Source: Bacillota bacterium
GTDB lineage: Bacteria > Bacillota > Clostridia > Peptostreptococcales > Anaerovoracaceae
Direction: 5' to 3'
NCBI GenBank assembly: GCA_017432345.1
Contig: JAFRJI010000024.1
Span: 50,092 to 114,091, forward strand
Length of the DNA stretch: 64,000 nt
Both the position numbers and the translations under genes were made by a program. Positions 42,864 through 52,786 of the stretch are shown piece by piece. Positions within the stretch are counted from its first letter, which is position 1; every line of letters begins with the position of its first letter. The notes beneath the pieces are model-generated. The model was not told the DNA's origin, made no database searches, and saw only the letters and a list, made by a program, of their open reading frames with translations.

Positions 42864-42869
42864 TAAAAT
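42864..42869 (+). promoter_or_regulatory. -10 of the ADC-like gene
   Basis: TGT-TAAAAT without a good -35, as expected for an activator-dependent promoter. Confidence 0.6.
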
Positions 42870-42909
42870 GTTATCAGAAAGAAAACCGTATATAAAGGAG
42901 GATAATCTA

Positions 42910-43773
42910 ATGAGTCTGAAATTCGAAAAGAAGCCTTATTTCATGCCTGTTTTTTTCAGCGGTGAGGACGATCATGGAATCAATGATACTTCCTTCCACG
43001 AACCGGCTGACATCAATGTAATTTCCCTCACGTACGAAACCGACCGTGAGGCTCTTGAAAGTATTATTCCAGATTGCTATGAACTTCTGGAGCCATACGT
43101 TAACATCAAGTTCTGTGAGTTTTTTGGCTGCAGCTGGATGGCCGGCAAGGGATATACTCTCATCAATGTCAACTGTCCGGTCCGCTTTAAGGGGGAACGC
43201 GATGAAATGGAAGGTGATCTGATTCTGGTTATGTTCGAGAATCACGCCGATCCGATTATCGGCGGCCGTGATTCCATGGGTTATGCCAAGTACTTCGCAG
43301 AGATTCCGCTCATCGAAAAGCTCAACGGAAAATTCTCCTGCAAGGCTTCCGCATGGGGCAAGCCATTCCTGGAAATGACGGTCGATACAAACGTCAAGGC
43401 ATCTGAGGAAGATATTGAAGAAATCAAGAAGGTCGAAGGCCGTGCCAAAGGCAAGTTCCAGTACAAGTACATGCCGAAAGTCAGAGAAAAGGACGAGCCA
43501 TATGAGGCAAACTACACCACACCTGATTGTGCTTATCCGGTCGTTCTTCCTGCTTTTGAAAAGCCGGTTGACTATCCATACGAACTGGGTGCTTCCGAGA
43601 GCGAATGGGGCATGGGCAGCATTAAGCTGACGCCTACAGCATGGGAAGACTGGCCGCACGGATGGCGTATCGGTGCAGGCCTTGCGAAATTACAGCCAAA
43701 GCGTATCATTGCTGCAAGACATTTCACCTACAAGGATCCGGGCGTTTACTACACCTGCTACATACTGCGCTAA
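42910..43773 (+). CDS. Acetoacetate-decarboxylase-like protein
   Basis: The protein has 287 residues from the ATG at 42910, with AAAGGAGG eight nt upstream; an in-frame ATG 42 nt earlier lacks such a site. Family features are the DREALESIIPDCYELLEPYV strand, the GDLILVMFENHADPIIGGRD core and Lys127 in YAKYF. Lys127 aligns with the Schiff-base Lys115 of clostridial Adc, whose neighbour Lys116 is Tyr here. The fold also serves aldolase/dehydratase and lyase roles. In this cluster it could decarboxylate or cleave a beta-keto acid released by the diketone hydrolases. It is monocistronic under predicted LysR operator 1, with terminator 43809-43843. Confidence 0.82.
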   Translation: MSLKFEKKPYFMPVFFSGEDDHGINDTSFHEPADINVISLTYETDREALESIIPDCYELLEPYVNIKFCEFFGCSWMAGKGYTLINVNCPVRFKGERDEMEGDLILVMFENHADPIIGGRDSMGYAKYFAEIPLIEKLNGKFSCKASAWGKPFLEMTVDTNVKASEEDIEEIKKVEGRAKGKFQYKYMPKVREKDEPYEANYTTPDCAYPVVLPAFEKPVDYPYELGASESEWGMGSIKLTPTAWEDWPHGWRIGAGLAKLQPKRIIAARHFTYKDPGVYYTCYILR

Positions 43774-43870: not shown

Positions 43871-44863
43871 TTATGGATGCATGATGATCTTCCCAATCGC
43901 GTTGCCGCTGTCAAGAAGTTCATGAGCCTGTCTTGCCTGTTCGAGCGGGAATTCTTTGCATACAAACGGTTTTACCCTTCCGTCCCGGATCATATCAAAG
44001 CACTTTTCGGCGTTTGCCATTCTTCTCTCCGGTTTGTCATCAAAAACATGGAAGGAAAATGGTCTGATTGCCTGTGCGTGCCATGCACACTTAATAACTG
44101 TTTCCAGCTGTGGCAACTCGGGGGATCCGTTCAGCCAGTTATATAGAATGATCTGCCCGAAGTCTGCCAGATAATCAAATCTCTCCACTAGCTCTTTTCC
44201 CGCCGTCTGGTCATAGATGACATCTGCGCCCTTTCCATCCGTTGCCTCAAGAACAATCTCTTTTGTGTCGCTCTCTTTATAATTGAAGACCGTATCTGCG
44301 CCCAGTTTCCTGAGAACTTTGCATTTCTCTTCACTCGAAGCAGACGCAATGGTCTTGATTCCTGCGGACTTGGCCATCTGAATCATTGTCGTTCCAATGC
44401 CACCTGCTGCACCAGAGATATACATGCTGTCACCTTCTCCGATTTTTCCCGCATCGAACAACAGCGCATATGCCACCTGCAGGTTCAAAACGCCCGGAAC
44501 CATTTCAGGTTCGATACCCTCAGGTAATATGATGGCGTACTGTTCCTTTGAAACAGAATACTCGGCATGGGAACCGCAACCTGTGGCGTTTAGTACAGCC
44601 ACCTTATCTCCTGGTCGGATGGTTTTAACATCGGAACCCACTTTTTCCACAATCCCGGCGCTTTCATTCCCGATGATAAGACCTCCTGCGAGCGCCTCTG
44701 CCAGATACGGATCATTGCCGCTTCTGACGAGATAGTCGGGTTTGCCGACGCCGATGATCTTGTTTCGGACGAGGATTTCATCAGCTTTTGGTGATGGCTT
44801 GGGCATATCACCAAAGCGAATTACTTCCGGTCCGCCAAATGAATGAATATATGCTGCTTTCAT
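43871..44863 (-). CDS. MDR-superfamily quinone/enone oxidoreductase
   Basis: The 330-residue zinc-free medium-chain reductase has an N-terminal GroES-like part and the nucleotide loop SGAAGGIGTTMIQMAK near 145-160. SASSEEKCKVLRKLGAD marks probable NADPH preference. Relatives reduce quinones or conjugated enones (curcumin and leukotriene reductase types). It is the last gene of the cupin–MFS–MFS–MDR operon and overlaps the MFS stop (ATGA). In this pathway it may reduce an enone or ketone intermediate; that is inference. Confidence 0.85.
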   Translation of the reverse strand: MKAAYIHSFGGPEVIRFGDMPKPSPKADEILVRNKIIGVGKPDYLVRSGNDPYLAEALAGGLIIGNESAGIVEKVGSDVKTIRPGDKVAVLNATGCGSHAEYSVSKEQYAIILPEGIEPEMVPGVLNLQVAYALLFDAGKIGEGDSMYISGAAGGIGTTMIQMAKSAGIKTIASASSEEKCKVLRKLGADTVFNYKESDTKEIVLEATDGKGADVIYDQTAGKELVERFDYLADFGQIILYNWLNGSPELPQLETVIKCAWHAQAIRPFSFHVFDDKPERRMANAEKCFDMIRDGRVKPFVCKEFPLEQARQAHELLDSGNAIGKIIMHP

Positions 44864-46071
44864 ATCGTTCTTCCTTTCCGTGTTTTACTTGTGCCCCAGA
44901 TCACCGCAGGCACACCCATCCCGGCAAGCAATAACGCAGCTAACAAATAAGTCAGCGTGCTCGGATGCACACTACCCGTAATCCCTGTAATAAAGTTCAT
45001 GATATACGGACAGACGAACTGTCCCAGATTTTGTGCGCACATGGTGATTGAAAGCGCCATGGCAGACGAAAAAGCATCCACGGAATTCGCCGTGTTGACG
45101 AAGGCCGCTGGCATGCAGACCGCCATGGCGATGCCATAGATGAAGCCTCCGATATAAATGAGCACCATACTCCCAGCAAGTGCAAGAACCAGATATGACA
45201 GTGCCATGATGAACAAACCGATGGCGAAGGTCAAGTCGCCCGCCTTACCGGCCAGCTTCCCATACAAAATACCCATGATGAAACCACCGATACAGGCCAC
45301 CGCCACTGTTGCGCCGGACTCAGCAGCTCCGCCGATTGACTTCTCATTCAAAACATAGGAAATGTACACCGTGTACACCTGGACACCGATGAACAACAGG
45401 AAGGTGATGCCAGCCCAGCTCCAGGAGCTTTTGTTCAGGTGGGTCTTTTGCCGGCTGCTCCCACCAGCGCCTTCTGCAAAATTCTCTCTGCCAGGAATGT
45501 CCTTTTTCGGTGTTCTGACAAGTGGCAGACACACGATGGCAACGATCAACGACAGAATGGCAATCCCGTGCACCAGGAAAGATGCGTTCCAGGCGATGTC
45601 TCCCAGCCACCCCCCGGCAAACACCATTACAGCGCAGCCAAGCATCTGGGCAGAAGTCATCGTTCCCTGCACCGATTCCCGTTCTGGTCCGAAGAAATTT
45701 TCGGCTACGAGTGCTGAAGCAACTGCCTGCACGATGCCGACGCCGATACCGAACAGCGCCCGAAAAAGCAGAATTATCGGCAGAGAGGTAAGTGCCACCG
45801 GCACAACACCCCCGATTAGGAAAATCAGCATGCCGATGATACCAAGCGTCTTCTTCGGCATGATTTCCATCAGTTTACCGGAAAGAATCGTTGTCGGGAG
45901 CACGGCCAGACACGGGATGGAGATGATGCTCTGGATCATGGACTGTGATGCGGATGAAAATTGTGATCCGATCACTGTCAGGGAACCTGACACCCCAACG
46001 ATCCCCATCATGAGAATGGCCATGGCGTAGATTCCGATTTTTATTTTTGTTTTGTTATGGTTCATATCCAT
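44860..46071 (-). CDS. MFS transporter
   Basis: The protein has 403 residues and twelve predicted helices. I start it at the ATG at 46071, six nt after GAGGAG, instead of an ATG eight codons upstream that would sit before the ribosome site. FRALFGIGVGIVQAVASALVAE near 110 is the MFS motif region, and a central loop separates two six-helix bundles. The substrate is unknown. It lies between a second MFS gene and the MDR reductase, so it may import the diketone-type substrate or export a product. Confidence 0.85.
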   Translation of the reverse strand: MDMNHNKTKIKIGIYAMAILMMGIVGVSGSLTVIGSQFSSASQSMIQSIISIPCLAVLPTTILSGKLMEIMPKKTLGIIGMLIFLIGGVVPVALTSLPIILLFRALFGIGVGIVQAVASALVAENFFGPERESVQGTMTSAQMLGCAVMVFAGGWLGDIAWNASFLVHGIAILSLIVAIVCLPLVRTPKKDIPGRENFAEGAGGSSRQKTHLNKSSWSWAGITFLLFIGVQVYTVYISYVLNEKSIGGAAESGATVAVACIGGFIMGILYGKLAGKAGDLTFAIGLFIMALSYLVLALAGSMVLIYIGGFIYGIAMAVCMPAAFVNTANSVDAFSSAMALSITMCAQNLGQFVCPYIMNFITGITGSVHPSTLTYLLAALLLAGMGVPAVIWGTSKTRKGRTI

Positions 46072-46105
46072 GTTCTGCTCCTCAAAAAATGTCAAAAGGA
46101 ACTGT

Positions 46106-46174: not shown

Positions 46175-47458
46175 TTATCCTTCGTGATCGTAGTCTTCAT
46201 TTCCTACCGCTACCTTGACGTGGACAAAGATGAAGATCAGGCCGCCAATCAGCGCAACGATTGCGAAAAATACATATGGCACTGTATACCCTGATGTTAT
46301 TCCGCGCAGGATCGCAAGGATAATGAAGGAACAGGATCTGACGATACCTACGATGGTGTTAACGCATGCATAGCATGTCGGGAAGTCCTTACGTCCGAAT
46401 GCCAGCGCTGTCATGGATGGCGGGAAATTGCCATTTCCGCCGATGCCGGCACCCAACATTACGATGCCAATCCACATAATGAAGGTATTCGGTGCCAATA
46501 GGAGCAGAATGCCGATGCAATACCAGATACCGAAAATGGTGGATGTCTTCTTGGTACCGATCTTCTGGTCTATGGTTCCCCACATAACGGAACCCGCCAT
46601 TCCGATAATCGCCGCGATTGTAACCGTATTCAATGCGGTCTGAAGCTCCCATCCTCTGGTTTCCATGAAGAAGCCGACGAGTTGTGACATGATACCGACA
46701 GTGGCCATTCCAAAGAATCCGTAGGCGATACCAAAGATCCACACATACTTATTCTTCAATGCTTCTTTGTAACCTGTTGGTTTTTCATCTTTCGTTCTCT
46801 CTTCTTCCGCTTCGATAAGCTTCGCAACTTCCGGGTCATTGTCCGGATAACATCCGGCGTCTTCCGGTCTTTCCTTGACGAAAATCGCTGTCAGCAATGC
46901 CACAAACAGAATGACGCAGCCCATGATGGTAATCGCCCCAGCGATACCCCAATGGTTCGAAAGCTGGTTCAGGACCTGGCTGATCAAGGCGCTTGCCAAG
47001 TTCATGCCGATGGTGGCAACGCCCATAACAACACCTTTCTTTGTCGGGAACCAGTTGGTCGTAATGGCCATACCTACATTGATAGCGAATGCGTTGATCA
47101 GTGTGACCATCAGCACCAGCGCGATGAAATAGAGCGGGATCGTCGCTGCATTGCCGTAGAATATTGTCGCCAGCCCTGCAGCCACCATGGTTATGAGCAT
47201 CATTTTCTTCGCACCGAACTTAACGATGAGGCCGCCCCACAGGGCACATAAGATCAAAGCGATAATGGATGCTGGCGTTGAGAATGACAGGATCGTATTC
47301 GGATCCCATCCTCTGAAAGCTGCAATTCCCGGTACGATGATGTTCAGTCCGTCAACCGTCATACCCGTCATGAAGAACAGCCAAACGATCTGGAAGCCTA
47401 CGACGGACCATCCTCTAGCGCCAAAGGCATATAATCCTGGTTTTTTTGTAGTCTGCAT
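46175..47458 (-). CDS. MFS transporter, oxalate/formate-antiporter-like
   Basis: The 427-residue protein has twelve helices. The conserved loop ALWGGLIVKFGAKKMM, the NWFPTKKGVVMGVATIGMNL block and the central charged loop with PEDAGCYPDNDPE are typical of the OFA branch, which carries organic anions. The GAGIGGNGNFPPSM region near 335 is the pseudo-symmetric counterpart. It lies 21 nt behind the cupin gene under the same predicted LysR operator. Confidence 0.85.
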   Translation of the reverse strand: MQTTKKPGLYAFGARGWSVVGFQIVWLFFMTGMTVDGLNIIVPGIAAFRGWDPNTILSFSTPASIIALILCALWGGLIVKFGAKKMMLITMVAAGLATIFYGNAATIPLYFIALVLMVTLINAFAINVGMAITTNWFPTKKGVVMGVATIGMNLASALISQVLNQLSNHWGIAGAITIMGCVILFVALLTAIFVKERPEDAGCYPDNDPEVAKLIEAEEERTKDEKPTGYKEALKNKYVWIFGIAYGFFGMATVGIMSQLVGFFMETRGWELQTALNTVTIAAIIGMAGSVMWGTIDQKIGTKKTSTIFGIWYCIGILLLLAPNTFIMWIGIVMLGAGIGGNGNFPPSMTALAFGRKDFPTCYACVNTIVGIVRSCSFIILAILRGITSGYTVPYVFFAIVALIGGLIFIFVHVKVAVGNEDYDHEG

Positions 47459-47479: not shown

Positions 47480-47830
47480 TTAATCCATCTTCGGCAGCGG
47501 GCTGGCAATTACCAGCATGGTAGTCACATAGTTTGTCTTGTTCAGGATCTGCTTACCTTCTCCTGCTGCAAAGTGCATGGAGTCATACTTTCCGAGAACT
47601 TCAATCACATTGTCGTCCTTATCCAGTACCGTCAGTTCTCCTTCGAGAATGAAATAAACTAATTCAACCGGTGGCTCTACATATGCCGTTCCGCCGCCCG
47701 GCAGGAAGTGTGACATTCCCAGCGAGAATGCCTGACAATCATTGGCCGGTCCGTGCAAACGGATCGCTCTCATATCAAAATGCCCTGGTGCGTTATATGC
47801 TTCAGACTTGTTTACTTCTACTTTATTCAT
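47480..47830 (-). CDS. Small single-domain cupin protein
   Basis: The 116-residue protein has the two cupin motifs in reduced form: GGGTAYVEPPVELVYFILEGELTV and the later YDSMHFAAGEG. Only one or two potential metal-binding His/Glu residues are present, so a metal site is uncertain. Small cupins serve as isomerases, decarboxylases, cyclases or ligand sensors. It is the first gene of the four-gene transport/reductase operon, 79 nt downstream of a -10 (TACAAT, 47909-47914). Confidence 0.75.
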   Translation of the reverse strand: MNKVEVNKSEAYNAPGHFDMRAIRLHGPANDCQAFSLGMSHFLPGGGTAYVEPPVELVYFILEGELTVLDKDDNVIEVLGKYDSMHFAAGEGKQILNKTNYVTTMLVIASPLPKMD

Positions 47831-48022: not shown

Positions 48023-48094
48023 AAAGATGCCAGGCCCGTAAGATAGACCTGATTGATTATCCGTTATCACACGTATCACAAAGGATTATTAGAA

Positions 48095-48991
48095 ATGGAT
48101 ATCAACAGAATACGAGAATTTCTGACACTTTCTGAACATCTCAATTACAGCAAAGCTGCGAATCTTCTCTATATTACCCAGCCTGTTCTCAGCCGTCACA
48201 TTCACGATCTTGAAGAGACCCTGGGGGGACAACTGTTCCTGCGCGATACGCATAAAGTTGAATTGACGGAGTTCGGGGAGATCTGCGCCAATCAACTGCG
48301 GGAGGTGGTCAATGCTTATGACTCCGCGCTAATCCATATCAGAAACGCTGCTGACACATCCAGCGATACATTGACCATTGGTTTTTTGGAATATGCAGTC
48401 AGACCATTTTTGAGCCAGTTCGCCAACTGGTTCCAGACGGCGCATCCCAACATTGAAATCGATTATGATTCCGGCAATCTGGACGATCTGGCGGACTCTG
48501 TTCTGGAGGACCGGATGGATCTGGCCTTCGTAACAAGTGTTGGCTCTGATTCATCGTTCAGCAAAGAACTGGATAGCCAGACCGTCTATGAGGACCGTTT
48601 GTTTGCCGTTGTCTCTCCAAGGCACGATATCAGCAGCAAGGAATCCATCACCATTGAAGAGTTGTCCACCTATCCGCTGATCAATTATTCCAAAACAAAC
48701 AATCCTCACACCTCGAACTTCCACAAAAGTTTGTTTGAGAGCAGGGGTCTTCATATGCAGACGGCCAAAGAAGTTACCAGCTTTGAGTCCGGAATGTTCT
48801 ATGCAAAAGCAGGCATCGGAGTGTTCCTGATTCCGCAGCACCTCAGCTTTATTGCGGAAGATCTGATTACCGTTCCGATCTCCGACAAAGACTGTGTGGT
48901 CCCTCTGAATCTGATTTGGAAGACCCAGAATCCGAAACAATCTCTGCAGACTTTTGTTAAAGAATTCCAGCTGTTTTACAAGAACCGTTGA
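48095..48991 (+). CDS. LysR-family transcriptional regulator of the diketone cluster
   Basis: The protein has 298 residues from the ATG at 48095 behind AAAGGA. The winged helix-turn-helix lies at about 1-60 (FLTLSEHLNYSKAANLLYITQPVLSRHIHDLE). A LysR substrate-binding domain (about 88-295) follows. It is the only regulator in the 42-53 kb island and sits at its centre, divergent from the cupin operon. The four conserved T-N11-A dyads at a fixed distance from -10 elements are its likely targets, so it is probably an activator that responds to a pathway metabolite. Confidence 0.92.
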   Translation: MDINRIREFLTLSEHLNYSKAANLLYITQPVLSRHIHDLEETLGGQLFLRDTHKVELTEFGEICANQLREVVNAYDSALIHIRNAADTSSDTLTIGFLEYAVRPFLSQFANWFQTAHPNIEIDYDSGNLDDLADSVLEDRMDLAFVTSVGSDSSFSKELDSQTVYEDRLFAVVSPRHDISSKESITIEELSTYPLINYSKTNNPHTSNFHKSLFESRGLHMQTAKEVTSFESGMFYAKAGIGVFLIPQHLSFIAEDLITVPISDKDCVVPLNLIWKTQNPKQSLQTFVKEFQLFYKNR

Positions 48992-49094: not shown

Positions 49095-49976
49095 TTAAGA
49101 AGTAGCTACCAGACCGCCGTCCGGATAGATCGTCGTTGCTGTTACCATATCCGAAGCTGCTGAGGCCAGGAACAGTGCAACACCGACAACATCGATCTCA
49201 TAACCGATTCTTCTTGCTGGCAGACCATCCGCGATCTTGTTGCGTGTCTCTTCGTCCGGCGGAAGCAGGCCGACCATCATCGGTGTATAAGTGATATTCG
49301 GTCCGATGGCGTTGACTTGGATGTTCGGTCTCAGATCTGCTGCAAATGACTTGGTAAGCATTTCCACTGAACCCTTGGTCGTGCAGTAACCGACATTACC
49401 CATACCGCCATTGCCGATAATCCGGATGCCGCGTACAGAACCCATATTGATGATTTTGCCGTAGCCTTCGCAAGGGGAAGGCTGACCCGGTGTGAATTCT
49501 GATTCATCATAAACTTTACCGTCTTCTGTGTTGTTCTCCTTCATCCAGTTGCCGAAGTAGCGGTTCGTGTACATGGTGGAAGTAATGTTTGTCTTCAGCA
49601 TCTTCTCCCAGTAATCGGAGTCGATCTCCCATGAGAACATCTTCTTGTTCAGGCCCTGGGTATTGACCAGAATATCGCATCCTCCCAGGCCCTCTTCACT
49701 GACCATAAAATCTCTGGCAGCGATAACCTCATCTTCGACACAGGCATCACATGCGTAGTATTTTACCTGAACGCCTTCTGCTGCGACAGCTTTGATTTCT
49801 TCAACTGCCTGCTTCAGTGCTTCCTCTCTTCTGGACAGAATCAGCACATCCACTCCGTTTGCGGCAAATCCTTCCGCAATGGCCTTGCCGAATCCACCGG
49901 CACCGCCAAAGATTGCGGCTTTCTTTCCGCTGATATCGAACATATTTGTCAGTTTTCCGTCATATACTTTAGGCAT
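49095..49976 (-). CDS. Short-chain dehydrogenase/reductase
   Basis: The 293-residue protein has a Rossmann loop GGAGGFG (24-30, replacing TGxxxGIG), a VNTQG motif in place of NNAG, and the catalytic Ser180, Tyr197 and Lys201 (MGS, YCTTK). An insertion of about 25 residues at 148-172 is unusual and may shape the substrate pocket. The C-terminal TATTIYPDGG is classical. It probably oxidises or reduces a hydroxyl/keto group in the same pathway as the two crotonase-like hydrolases, from which it is separated by 15 nt. Confidence 0.88.
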   Translation of the reverse strand: MPKVYDGKLTNMFDISGKKAAIFGGAGGFGKAIAEGFAANGVDVLILSRREEALKQAVEEIKAVAAEGVQVKYYACDACVEDEVIAARDFMVSEEGLGGCDILVNTQGLNKKMFSWEIDSDYWEKMLKTNITSTMYTNRYFGNWMKENNTEDGKVYDESEFTPGQPSPCEGYGKIINMGSVRGIRIIGNGGMGNVGYCTTKGSVEMLTKSFAADLRPNIQVNAIGPNITYTPMMVGLLPPDEETRNKIADGLPARRIGYEIDVVGVALFLASAASDMVTATTIYPDGGLVATS

Positions 49977-49991
49977 TGTTATTTCCTCCTT

Positions 49992-51011
49992 TTATTCATC
50001 GTCTTTTTTCGGTCTGTATGGTTTGATGGTTTTGAGTTTGAAAGGATTGACTGCTTTTCCTGCTTCTACTTCCTTGAACCACTCAAACGGCTTGGTTCTG
50101 AAGCCCGCCCAGCTTTCTCTGGTCGGAGGCTGCTGCATCCAGTCATTCTGATATCTCCAGTCATTGGTCTGACTGATATATTTCTCATCCTGCTGACCAG
50201 CATTGGTATCACCCATTTCACCGGCGGCGATTCTGAGCAGCGATCCATACTGTTCGCTGACGGTATGGAGCTTTAAGTCGTCCATAAAGAGCTTCTTCAG
50301 CGGTCTCTTCGCCAGATTGGACATGATCGTTCTGTTTTCATAAGGCATCGTCTTCCACATTCTTGCGATTTCCCATGCTCTATCCAGGACTTCACCTTTT
50401 TTGCAAATCTCGCTGATCATTCCCCAGTCAAGCATCTGCTGCGCTGTCCACTGACGGGCAGTCATCATGTAGTAGGTTCCTCTCTTTGTTCCAAAGAAGT
50501 GCTGCGCCATGAGGCCCATGCCGTCTCCCGGAACCAGTCCGCCATGTGCATGAGGAACTTCCATCCATGTGTCTTCGGAAGCAAGCGTAACATCACAGAG
50601 CATCGCTGAATCCCAGTGGAATCCAGGACCCGGGATGGCACCAATCGTCGGAACATCCAGATCGAATACCATATTCTTGATCAGGTTTGTGTCGTCGAAA
50701 TACTGATGCTGGAATCTCTCCTTCGGAAGCTCTGAATATGTTTCCCATCCGTTCGGATCGGATTCTGTCATCCAGCTGTCTCCCAAATGGGTGAAAATGA
50801 TGATTTCATTCTTATTGTCCATCGAGATGAACCTGGTCAGCTGGCTAGCAGCTCTGTGTGACATACCGCTATGGCACATCTGATGATCATTTGTCTTCCA
50901 GGTGACCTGAAGGATTCCATCTTCACGATAGAGATCTGCAAAGTCCTTAAACCATTCTTTATATTCTTCCAGTTCCGGAAGCTTAACGTAATCTGCTAAA
51001 GGTCTTGCCAT
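49992..51011 (-). CDS. Crotonase-superfamily protein, 6-oxocamphor-hydrolase-like (copy B)
   Basis: The 339-residue protein is a paralogue of its upstream neighbour, with about two-thirds identical positions by eye. It has the OCH-type active-site layout: His132 in GPGFHWDS, His154 in VPHAHGGLVPGDG and Asp163 in the same block. These match the catalytic His122/His145/Asp154 of Rhodococcus 6-oxocamphor hydrolase. The following MAQHFFGTKRGTYYMMTARQ also parallels OCH. OCH cleaves a C-C bond between two ketones of a beta-diketone without CoA. An extra ~30-residue N-terminus and ~70-residue C-terminus set it apart. The start has AAAGGAGGAG. Confidence 0.85.
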   Translation of the reverse strand: MARPLADYVKLPELEEYKEWFKDFADLYREDGILQVTWKTNDHQMCHSGMSHRAASQLTRFISMDNKNEIIIFTHLGDSWMTESDPNGWETYSELPKERFQHQYFDDTNLIKNMVFDLDVPTIGAIPGPGFHWDSAMLCDVTLASEDTWMEVPHAHGGLVPGDGMGLMAQHFFGTKRGTYYMMTARQWTAQQMLDWGMISEICKKGEVLDRAWEIARMWKTMPYENRTIMSNLAKRPLKKLFMDDLKLHTVSEQYGSLLRIAAGEMGDTNAGQQDEKYISQTNDWRYQNDWMQQPPTRESWAGFRTKPFEWFKEVEAGKAVNPFKLKTIKPYRPKKDDE

Positions 51012-51029
51012 AATAGTCTCCTCCTTTAA

Positions 51030-52046
51030 TTAGAACTTGTACCAATCCGGTTCATTGCTGTGCTCGAACTGGAATGGATTCTCGATTTCACCGCTGTCGA
51101 CCTTATCCCACCATTCCTTGGCTCTCTTAGGCATTCCACGCCACAGTTCCTTGGTCATCGGCTGTTCCATATCGGTCGTAGCATAACGGTAATCGTTGAC
51201 ACGGCTGATGTATTTTTCATCCTGCTGTTCGGAGTTTTCGTCTCCCAGCGTTCCTGCAGCAACACGAAGCATGGAAGCGTACTGCTCGCTGACAGTGTGG
51301 AGTTTCAGATCTTCCATCAGGAGCTTCTTCAGTGGTCTCTTCGCCAGATTGGACATTATCGTTCTGTTCTCATAAGGCATGGTCTTCCACATTCTTGCGA
51401 TTTCCCATGCTCTGTCAAGCGCTTCGCCTTTCTTTGTGACTTCGCTGACGGCGCCTGCATCCAGTAGCTGCTTTGCTGTGATCTGCCGTGTTGTCATCAT
51501 ATAGTAATTGCCACGCTTAGTTCCCAGATAATGCTGGAACATGAGGCCCATTCCGTCTCCAGGAACCAGGCCGCCCTGTGCGTGCGGCACTTCGATCTTA
51601 GTATCTTCTGTAACGATGGTCACGTCACAAAGGAAAGCGGAATCCCAGTGGAATCCAGGTCCCGGCATAACACCGATGGTTGGAACATCGATATCAAAGA
51701 CCATGTTCTTGATAAGATTTGTGTCATCGAAGTACTGATGCTCAAATCTTTCTCTCGGAAGCTGTGAATATCTTTCCCATCCGTTCGCGTCGGATTCGAT
51801 CATCCAGTTGTCACCGATATGGGTGAAGATGATGATTTCATTTTCATAATCCAGTGACAGCATTCTGGTCAGCTGGCTGGCAGCTCTGTGGGACATACCG
51901 CTGTGGTGCATCGGACCATCATTGGTTTTCCATGTTACCTGTACGATGCCGTCTTCTCTCTTCAAATCTGCAAATGCCTTGAACCATTCTTTGTATTCAT
52001 CGAACGAAGGCAGTTTCACATAATCTGCTAATGGCTTATTACTCAT
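51030..52046 (-). CDS. Crotonase-superfamily protein, 6-oxocamphor-hydrolase-like (copy A)
   Basis: The 338-residue protein is the first gene of the crotonase–crotonase–SDR operon. Catalytic candidates are His133 (GPGFHWDS), His155 and Asp164 (VPHAQGGLVPGDG), as in OCH. The position of OCH Trp40 is His48 here, in MHHSGMSHRA, and the same histidine occurs in copy B. The oxyanion-hole region differs from CoA-dependent enoyl-CoA hydratases, and the expected catalytic glutamates are absent. A beta-diketone hydrolase (retro-Claisen) is therefore the best call. Two tandem copies suggest a hetero-oligomer or two successive or stereo-divergent hydrolyses. The ribosome site is AGGAGG. Confidence 0.85.
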   Translation of the reverse strand: MSNKPLADYVKLPSFDEYKEWFKAFADLKREDGIVQVTWKTNDGPMHHSGMSHRAASQLTRMLSLDYENEIIIFTHIGDNWMIESDANGWERYSQLPRERFEHQYFDDTNLIKNMVFDIDVPTIGVMPGPGFHWDSAFLCDVTIVTEDTKIEVPHAQGGLVPGDGMGLMFQHYLGTKRGNYYMMTTRQITAKQLLDAGAVSEVTKKGEALDRAWEIARMWKTMPYENRTIMSNLAKRPLKKLLMEDLKLHTVSEQYASMLRVAAGTLGDENSEQQDEKYISRVNDYRYATTDMEQPMTKELWRGMPKRAKEWWDKVDSGEIENPFQFEHSNEPDWYKF

Positions 52047-52267: not shown

Positions 52268-52786
52268 TTAAGCGCGAACAATGCGGCCGGGTTTTCTCTC
52301 CGCGGCTTCCGGCAGATCCCCCTCACGATAACCAAGGATGCAGTTTCCGATGCCGACATAACCCTCCGGCACGCCCCACTTCCGCATGAGCGCTTTGCCT
52401 TCTTCCGTCTCGAAGGTTTCCTTTGCGCGGTGGATCCAGCATGAATCCACGCCGATGGAAGCCGCCGCCAACATCATGGTTCCGATGACCAGGCTCCCGT
52501 CTTCCACAAATGTCAGACGGTTGTTATCTGCAAAAACGACCACGACAGTCGGTGCGCCATAGAACGGATCGATATCCATTCCCATAACCTGGGCATTCAA
52601 CCCGCTCATCTGGGCGATGATTTCCGGATCCTGAACGGCAACCATCATACTCGCCTGTTGTCCCATACCACTTGGAGCGTAGGATCCGGCATCTAGAATA
52701 GTTTTCAGCTGTTCATCTGTAATCTGCTCGTTGCGGTAGCTTCGTATGCTTCTGCGCGTATTGATCGTTCTTATTGTTTCATTCAT
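52268..52786 (-). CDS. Nitroreductase-family flavoprotein
   Basis: The 172-residue protein has the FMN-binding RRSIRSYRNEQI start, the GSYAPSGMGQQ block and the C-terminal IGNCILGYREG motif of the small NfsB/YdjA-like group. These enzymes use FMN and NAD(P)H to reduce nitro, quinone or enone compounds. The gene overlaps the preceding 81-residue gene (ATGA). Operator 4 upstream predicts co-regulation with the diketone cluster, where it may carry out a reduction step. Confidence 0.88.
   Translation of the reverse strand: MNETIRTINTRRSIRSYRNEQITDEQLKTILDAGSYAPSGMGQQASMMVAVQDPEIIAQMSGLNAQVMGMDIDPFYGAPTVVVVFADNNRLTFVEDGSLVIGTMMLAAASIGVDSCWIHRAKETFETEEGKALMRKWGVPEGYVGIGNCILGYREGDLPEAAERKPGRIVRA

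Follow-up and report, generated by a model that had tools for sequence, protein, structure and literature searches.

Do two adjacent crotonase-family genes of an anaerobe encode coenzyme A (CoA)-dependent enzymes, as their automatic family label says, or hydrolases that open a ring? The genes, OCH1 and OCH2, lie in a stretch of 64,000 nucleotides (hereafter, the window) from a Bacillota bacterium of the family Anaerovoracaceae (assembly GCA_017432345.1, contig JAFRJI010000024.1, positions 50,092 to 114,091), and their products resemble 6-oxocamphor hydrolase (OCH). The answer favored here is that both are probably CoA-independent crotonase-fold C-C hydrolases, which would open a cyclic 1,3-diketone formed by reductive dearomatization of a phloroglucinol-type ring. 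The diketone would more likely be a C-substituted dihydrophloroglucinol than dihydrophloroglucinol itself. We infer every reaction and substrate from homology, active-site conservation, gene order, and co-occurrence. An earlier note on this DNA had placed the tandem pair at 49095-52046; that interval also spans an SDR gene (49095-49976), and the pair itself occupies 49992-52046.

OCH1, 49992-51011, minus strand: predicted C-C hydrolase like OCH and Anabaena β-diketone hydrolase (ABDH), 339 residues, with H52, H132, H154, D163, and E253
OCH2, 51030-52046, minus strand: paralogue of OCH1, 338 residues, with H53, H133, H155, D164, and E254

Both open reading frames (ORFs) are intact, and their products are 74% identical over 325 residues.

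Family and Active Site of OCH1 and OCH2

Judged by sequence, OCH1 and OCH2 group with the CoA-independent β-diketone hydrolases and not with CoA-dependent crotonases. In a search made with OCH1, the PDB sequences nearest to the window family (both copies and their relatives) are those of ABDH (2j5g and 2j5s) and OCH (1o8u and 1szo). OCH1 matched 2j5g at 1.5e-32, 1o8u at 5e-30, and 1szo at 2e-29, whereas the best crotonase outside OCH and ABDH reached just 9e-9. Profile-profile comparison of a 51-row family alignment gave an E value of 3e-40 over 229 columns with OCH/ABDH fragments, compared with 6e-17 over 175 columns with seven CoA-type crotonases. In a 47-row tree, the window family, OCH, and ABDH were split from six crotonases with support of 100/100, at a node where, according to a treekit warning, long branches meet. 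The tandem OCH-like proteins described in the earlier note are borne out by these scores.

The residues H45, H122, H145, D154, and E244, which we take to be the active site of OCH, align in that order with the five residues given above for each copy. Each of the five is invariant in OCH1, in OCH2, and across the 71 relatives with 300 residues or more, an alignment from which truncated or shorter copies, both copies of locus L009 (near-identical to those of the window), and L091 (a duplicate of L066) were excluded. The His/His/Asp set of OCH that had been claimed for both proteins is therefore present. In PMC3584854, the catalytic residues of ABDH are given as H43, H144, D153, and E243, and the catalytic glutamates of enoyl-CoA hydratase (ECH) as Glu144 and Glu164. 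The window family resembles OCH and ABDH in the same five positions (four are visible in the ABDH fragment used) and in the loss of the ECH glutamates. The Glu144 column holds His in 71/71 relatives, and the Glu164 column holds Tyr in 71/71, compared with Glu in five of seven crotonase rows; the reported lack of CoA-dependent hydratase features is upheld as far as the catalytic glutamates go. Given that six of the seven crotonase rows also have Glu in the OCH Glu244 column, this position is not diagnostic. One of the seven rows (L105) is a wrong-frame ORF and was left out of the tree.

Pfam matched both copies to crotonase-family models only (ECH_1 at 44 and 43 bits), consistent with the automatic label of a CoA-dependent enoyl-CoA hydratase or isomerase. 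That identity is scarcely credible and was rejected: the His and Tyr in place of the ECH glutamates, the tree split (with its long-branch warning), and the PDB and profile scores all argue against it, and no NCBIfam model among those listed passed its cut-off. Pfam also gave neither copy membership of the PF04199 cyclase family, that of dihydrophloroglucinol cyclohydrolase (DPGC). The window family differs from OCH and ABDH in a C terminus ∼80 residues longer, in a specific Trp133 (70/71) and Lys176 (69/71), and in its occurrence in anaerobic gut hosts with phloroglucinol-type gene surroundings. A distant OCH relative (33-36% identity, with all five active-site residues) was observed in genome G009 of the window's genus (L007, 2649-8895), on one strand with genes for a thiolase, a β-keto-acid cleavage enzyme (BKACE), CtfAB, and an HtpG-like ORF assigned by eye.

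Distribution and Clades

A GTDB scan returned 76 OCH loci. Carriers include Flavonifractor plautii and other Flavonifractor, Pseudoflavonifractor, Intestinimonas, Eubacterium ramulus, Coprococcus catus, Olsenella profusa, Propionibacterium australiense, one Treponema metagenome-assembled genome (MAG), and many ruminant or deer MAGs. The closest loci, L009 and L010 (both 97%), come from a goat jejunum MAG and a Clostridia MAG of unstated source, and it is on this basis that the host is called a gut anaerobe. Within the window's class, one of 391 sampled genomes matched at 1e-30 (the window's own), and three of 41 relatives, its own genome included, matched OCH at 1e-20. OCH is an accessory trait with a patchy distribution.

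The two window copies belong to two separate old clades of the tree. Flavonifractor An112 carries one copy of each clade, C. catus carries two of one clade, and others carry a single copy of either. Obligate pairing of the two copies was rejected, given that loci with one copy, whichever its clade, share partner genes.

Genes Surrounding the Pair in the Window

The remaining genes of the locus are as follows.

Small nitroreductase-family flavoprotein (NTR), 52268-52786, minus strand: peripheral
SDR, 49095-49976, minus strand: candidate ring reductase, starting 15 bp after OCH1
LysR-type regulator, 48053-48991, plus strand: divergent to the cupin gene and convergent to the SDR gene
Cupin-like protein, 47480-47830, minus strand: no Pfam match of its own; 40% identical to a Cupin_2 protein from a cluster with phloroglucinol reductase (PGR) and DPGC
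MFS2, MFS transporter, 46175-47458, minus strand: 21 bp past cupin; MFS genes like it occur in other OCH loci
MFS1, MFS transporter, 44860-46095, minus strand
MDR/quinone-oxidoreductase-like protein, 43871-44863, minus strand: peripheral
Acetoacetate decarboxylase (ADC)-like protein, 42868-43773, plus strand: candidate aldolase or decarboxylase; K141 present, second Lys of the PKK motif lost

On the minus strand the order is NTR, OCH2, OCH1, and SDR, with gaps of 18 bp between OCH2 and OCH1 and 15 bp between OCH1 and SDR, and a terminator-like hairpin lies 3′ of SDR at 49046-49023. Past the convergent LysR gene follow cupin, MFS2, MFS1, and MDR, and then the convergent ADC gene. Terminator-like sites numbered 16 against 8.0 expected, promoter-like sites were at chance level (14 observed, 14.6 expected), the LysR-type pattern was not enriched (253 matches, 294 expected), and a plasmid comparison gave no match. 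Every neighbor named in the earlier note (SDR, ADC-like protein, MDR, nitroreductase, and two transporters) is present; the cupin-like protein and the LysR regulator were missing from its list. Given OCH-like proteins that lack the glutamates of CoA-dependent crotonases, in a catabolic-looking cluster of an anaerobe, it is reasonable to infer that a cyclic 1,3-diketone is opened by hydrolysis.

Phloroglucinol-type Partners in Other OCH Loci

As outlined in PMC10470551, the clostridial phloroglucinol pathway of Clostridium scatologenes consists of PGR, the Mn-dependent DPGC, TfD, and TAL (of the BKACE family), with a thiolase and CtfAB. Many OCH operons hold homologues of these downstream enzymes, of the thiolase, and of CtfAB; they differ from this pathway in that OCH replaces DPGC and in that the window-type SDR is only 26-31% identical to PGR. 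Neighbor genes were counted by tblastn because long antisense ORFs in GC-rich loci mislead ORF calling, and one neighbor cluster (C2, 22 loci) was rejected as an antisense ORF over the OCH gene. The counts cover 73 loci (L081, L083, and L084 were dropped because their OCH match was too short), with thresholds of at least 38% identity for SDR, MFS, LysR, and MDR and at least 28% for other roles; the CoA-transferase role covers acetyl-CoA hydrolase homologues.

At least one phloroglucinol-type partner (BKACE, 3-hydroxyacid dehydrogenase (HCDH), thiolase, CoA-transferase, window-type SDR, or ADC) was found in 33 of 53 OCH loci of at least 10 kb, compared with none of the 20 stretches of 20 kb that served as controls, drawn from four genomes with OCH. 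In the 53 loci, BKACE occurred in 19, HCDH in 17, thiolase in 18, CoA-transferase in 22, window-type SDR in 14, and ADC in 6. BKACE (24 loci) and ADC (6 loci) never occurred together in any of the 73, as expected of alternative lower routes. In the earlier note, the known phloroglucinol route was taken to use different enzymes; the set is nevertheless connected with that route, given that relatives adjoin homologues of its downstream enzymes or the malonate-semialdehyde dehydrogenase (MSDH) of its second form. Its view of a coherent gene set survives as far as a catabolic-looking cluster in an anaerobe is concerned. MDR was found in 4/73 loci; the nitroreductase was found in 2/73, both close kin of the window, and also in 1/20 control stretches. 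These two genes do not look like core parts of the OCH set.

No such partner occurs in the remaining 20 of the 53 longer loci. OCH genes standing alone in this way, and a flavin ene-reductase-type gene beside the E. ramulus OCH copy, would fit another cyclic or linear β-diketone as substrate, such as one derived from resorcinol, hop acids, or curcumin. We consider this unlikely because HCDH paired with BKACE, or an ADC-like protein paired with MSDH, suits a 3-hydroxy-5-oxo acid, which points to a 1,3,5-oxygenated ring. The E. ramulus gene (L091, 1-2031) encodes a 676-residue flavin reductase of the old-yellow-enzyme type; it immediately precedes the OCH gene, in the same orientation.

In OCH operons, OCH occupies the position expected for DPGC, a ring opener unrelated to it, and a cyclase query matched 0/73 OCH loci. 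A role after ring opening, with OCH as retro-aldolase or linear dioxo acid hydrolase and another protein as ring opener, is conceivable insofar as crotonase-fold enzymes are capable of retro-aldol chemistry and two copies might divide two cleavages between them. It is nevertheless very unlikely, given that no other ring-opener candidate was recognized in OCH operons, that single-copy loci of either clade have the partners of the two-copy loci, and that the active site matches C-C hydrolases.

In Flavonifractor An112, the operon reads MFS, DUF362, a 105-residue protein, HCDH, MFS, CtfA, CtfB, thiolase, OCH1, OCH2, BKACE, and a PTE-family protein. F. plautii ATCC 29863 has this gene set as far as BKACE (the second MFS was not confirmed), followed by a recombinase-like ORF assigned by eye; its OCH2 frame stops at 267 residues, and two PTE-family matches lie elsewhere in the genome. 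The one HCDH compared, that of L017, is nearest in the PDB to CoA-independent hydroxyacid dehydrogenases. A DUF362 protein was observed in OCH operons and a cyclase cluster (L017, 3410-4985; L043, 5798-7081; L095, 8590-10184), accompanied in L017 and L095 by a partner of 92-105 residues. Beside the cyclase cluster of An112 (L095, 6323-7189) lies a ferredoxin-nitroreductase-like fusion, a possible ring reductase.

Exchange of Parts between OCH Cassettes and PGR/DPGC-type Clusters

A second lower route, in which 3-hydroxy-5-oxohexanoate yields acetone and malonate semialdehyde, is described in a passage of PMC13039779, citing Li et al. 2024, for the aldolase-dependent pathway of Collinsella sp. 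zg1085. A DPGC search of 296 genomes of Olsenella's class found two with clusters of MSDH, a DeoC-like protein, cupin, PGR, and DPGC; the DeoC domain scored 30.7 bits (cut-off 23.8) in one cluster and 22.7, just below, in the other. Cupin, SDR, ADC, MSDH, and OCH occur together in O. profusa F0195, P. australiense, a Treponema MAG, and a Clostridiales MAG, three of these four cassettes also having an MFS gene. The MSDH of the four OCH cassettes fits the malonate-semialdehyde route and is 72-82% identical (mean 76%) to that of the two Coriobacteriia clusters, which are of the Collinsella kind; identity within the two kinds is 78% and 73%. By contrast, an ADC-like protein, another SDR, and OCH stand in for the DeoC-type aldolase, PGR, and DPGC, and neither OCH and DPGC nor ADC and the DeoC-like protein share a family. 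Among 14 chosen genomes, MSDH above cut-off was found in exactly the four with ADC cassettes. Three of them hold a second MSDH elsewhere, and the sole MSDH of O. profusa F0195 above cut-off lies in its OCH cassette.

The SDRs divide in the same way, with a mean identity of 31% between the OCH type and PGR and 67-68% within each kind. The SDR of the canonical E. ramulus cluster (L092: cupin, PGR, HCDH, DPGC, BKACE) matches PDB 5g4k, which we take to be a PGR structure, at 525 bits. A motif S-x-R-x-x-R in 14/17 window-type SDR-like frames is suggestive only and was not used. The L033 row of one SDR alignment was out of frame, and a BKACE identity matrix was set aside because its L043 and L097 rows had the same fault. 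The ADC-like protein has a PF06314 domain (104.5 bits, cut-off 29.8), and in place of PKK, a motif whose two lysines have roles in acetoacetate decarboxylase, it has AKY, as do its counterparts in L013, L025, and L041: K141 is present and the second Lys is lost.

The cupin gene adjoins SDR in eight OCH loci (9-94 bp) and PGR in six canonical clusters (81-348 bp); that of the window is 1.2 kb from SDR. Besides the window, cupin-bearing loci are L013, L016, L025, L040, L041, L048, L049, L051, L092, L094, and L097-L100. Cupins average 39% identity between the OCH and PGR/DPGC kinds and 62-63% within, a split less clear than that of the SDRs: the cupin of the E. ramulus PGR cluster, at 47-55%, lies closer to six of the seven OCH-type cupins from outside the window and about as close to the seventh (53%). 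The window cupin is 35-47% identical to all others compared.

In the simplest case, SDR, OCH, and ADC would functionally replace PGR, DPGC, and the DeoC-type aldolase for plain phloroglucinol. Such convergent replacement is possible because O. profusa F0195 and P. australiense have a complete OCH cassette, no PGR at 1e-40, and no PF04199 cyclase, and the MSDH common to both kinds of cluster fits it; as a narrower form of the favored reading it is nonetheless somewhat doubtful. PGR occurs alongside OCH in 8 of 14 genomes checked, which points to substituted phloroglucinols. A different ring would better explain why reductase, ring opener, and aldolase were replaced while MSDH was shared. The OCH cassette thus probably ends in the same C3 product, starting from a ring that requires other enzymes.

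Phloroglucinol reportedly induces PGR, DPGC, aldolase, and MSDH in an O. profusa strain studied by Li et al. in 2024. Our main claim would have been published already if the “DPGC” of that strain is this OCH-like protein, and would not if a DPGC-type cluster is present there. In the titles, abstract openings, and passages of open-licence literature that were searched (in part among the best 20 matches), no OCH-like enzyme was tied to anaerobic phenol breakdown, which is weak evidence of absence.

The Host Genome

Contig C8, on which the window lies, belongs to a 1.8-Mb genome that is 82% complete. This genome has the ADC of the malonate-semialdehyde route, the SDR, two OCH genes, the cupin, and transporters, and has no PGR at 1e-40. 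Contig C39 (L088, 5990-13145) carries a separate cluster, in which a PF04199 cyclase and a sigma54-type regulator accompany BKACE, HCDH, thiolase, and MFS, along with a nitroreductase that shares 75% identity with that of the window. The cyclase is 34-39% identical to DPGC copies and 89% identical to a second E. ramulus cyclase (L093), and the cluster looks like a third phloroglucinol-like pathway. A second BKACE is on contig C7.

Proposed Pathway

In the reading that we favor, the substrate would be imported by MFS, and the SDR, with NAD(P)H, would reduce the keto tautomer of a phloroglucinol-type (1,3,5-trihydroxybenzene) ring. OCH1 and OCH2 would then hydrate one carbonyl and cut the C-C bond (retro-Claisen) to give a 3-hydroxy-5-oxo acid. 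In many relatives, HCDH, BKACE, thiolase, and CoA-transferase would complete the breakdown. In others, retro-aldol cleavage by the ADC-like protein would release a methyl ketone together with malonate semialdehyde, and MSDH would convert the latter to acetyl-CoA.

Several points weigh against this scheme. The host genome, at 82% completeness, has no MSDH above cut-off (best score 207 against 448.5 bits). The window SDR, at 26% identity to E. ramulus PGR, was rejected as a PGR orthologue, and the Flavonifractor operon has no SDR. The L017 HCDH passed no NCBIfam cut-off, its top model being 3-hydroxyacyl-CoA dehydrogenase. OCH prefers non-enolizable bicyclic diketones, while dihydrophloroglucinol is enolized. 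Where PGR and OCH co-occur, OCH can be no plain substitute in the PGR route. In addition, the OCH loci are not independent of each other, and the 20 longer loci free of phloroglucinol-type partners count here as well.

A Possible Link to Flavan-3-ols

F. plautii is described, in passages of PMC9281540 and PMC8276758, as converting a catechin-derived diphenylpropan-2-ol to phenyl-γ-valerolactone and 4-hydroxyvaleric acid. This reported opener of the A-ring of a catechin intermediate carries an OCH operon. Strains are given in an excerpt of PMC12232328 (2025), where knowledge of strains and enzymes is called very limited, a peat catechin route outlined in PMC12203004 differs in running via taxifolin and phloroglucinol, and the portions seen of PMC13134046, PMC12940152, and PMC10930907 contain nothing on A-ring enzymes. 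The enzymes of the F. plautii conversion are not named in the parts of the literature examined. On paper, OCH, HCDH, BKACE, thiolase, and CoA-transferase acting on a 2-alkyl dihydrophloroglucinol would give a 4-hydroxy-5-arylvaleric acid. We suggest, tentatively and with more doubt than confidence, that the A-ring cleavage pathway still missing for C-substituted phloroglucinols, chiefly diphenylpropan-2-ols from catechins and condensed tannins, is encoded by OCH operons. OCH would open the reduced A-ring, the four partners would trim the product to 4-hydroxy-5-arylvaleric acid and phenyl-γ-valerolactone, and the PTE-family protein would be a lactonase.

Implications

If the proposal is correct, anaerobes own a second, unrelated enzyme class for retro-Claisen ring opening, a key step in polyphenol breakdown, and crotonase-family labels have concealed it. 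OCH-type ring opening could then be scored in genomes from gut, rumen, and soil, and a short list of candidate genes would be at hand for the conversion of catechin intermediates to phenyl-valerolactones, major metabolites of dietary tannins. In many gut bacteria, OCH-like enzymes lie among genes similar to those for phloroglucinol breakdown, which makes enzymes of this type good candidates for a ring-opening reaction that has been missed in polyphenol digestion.

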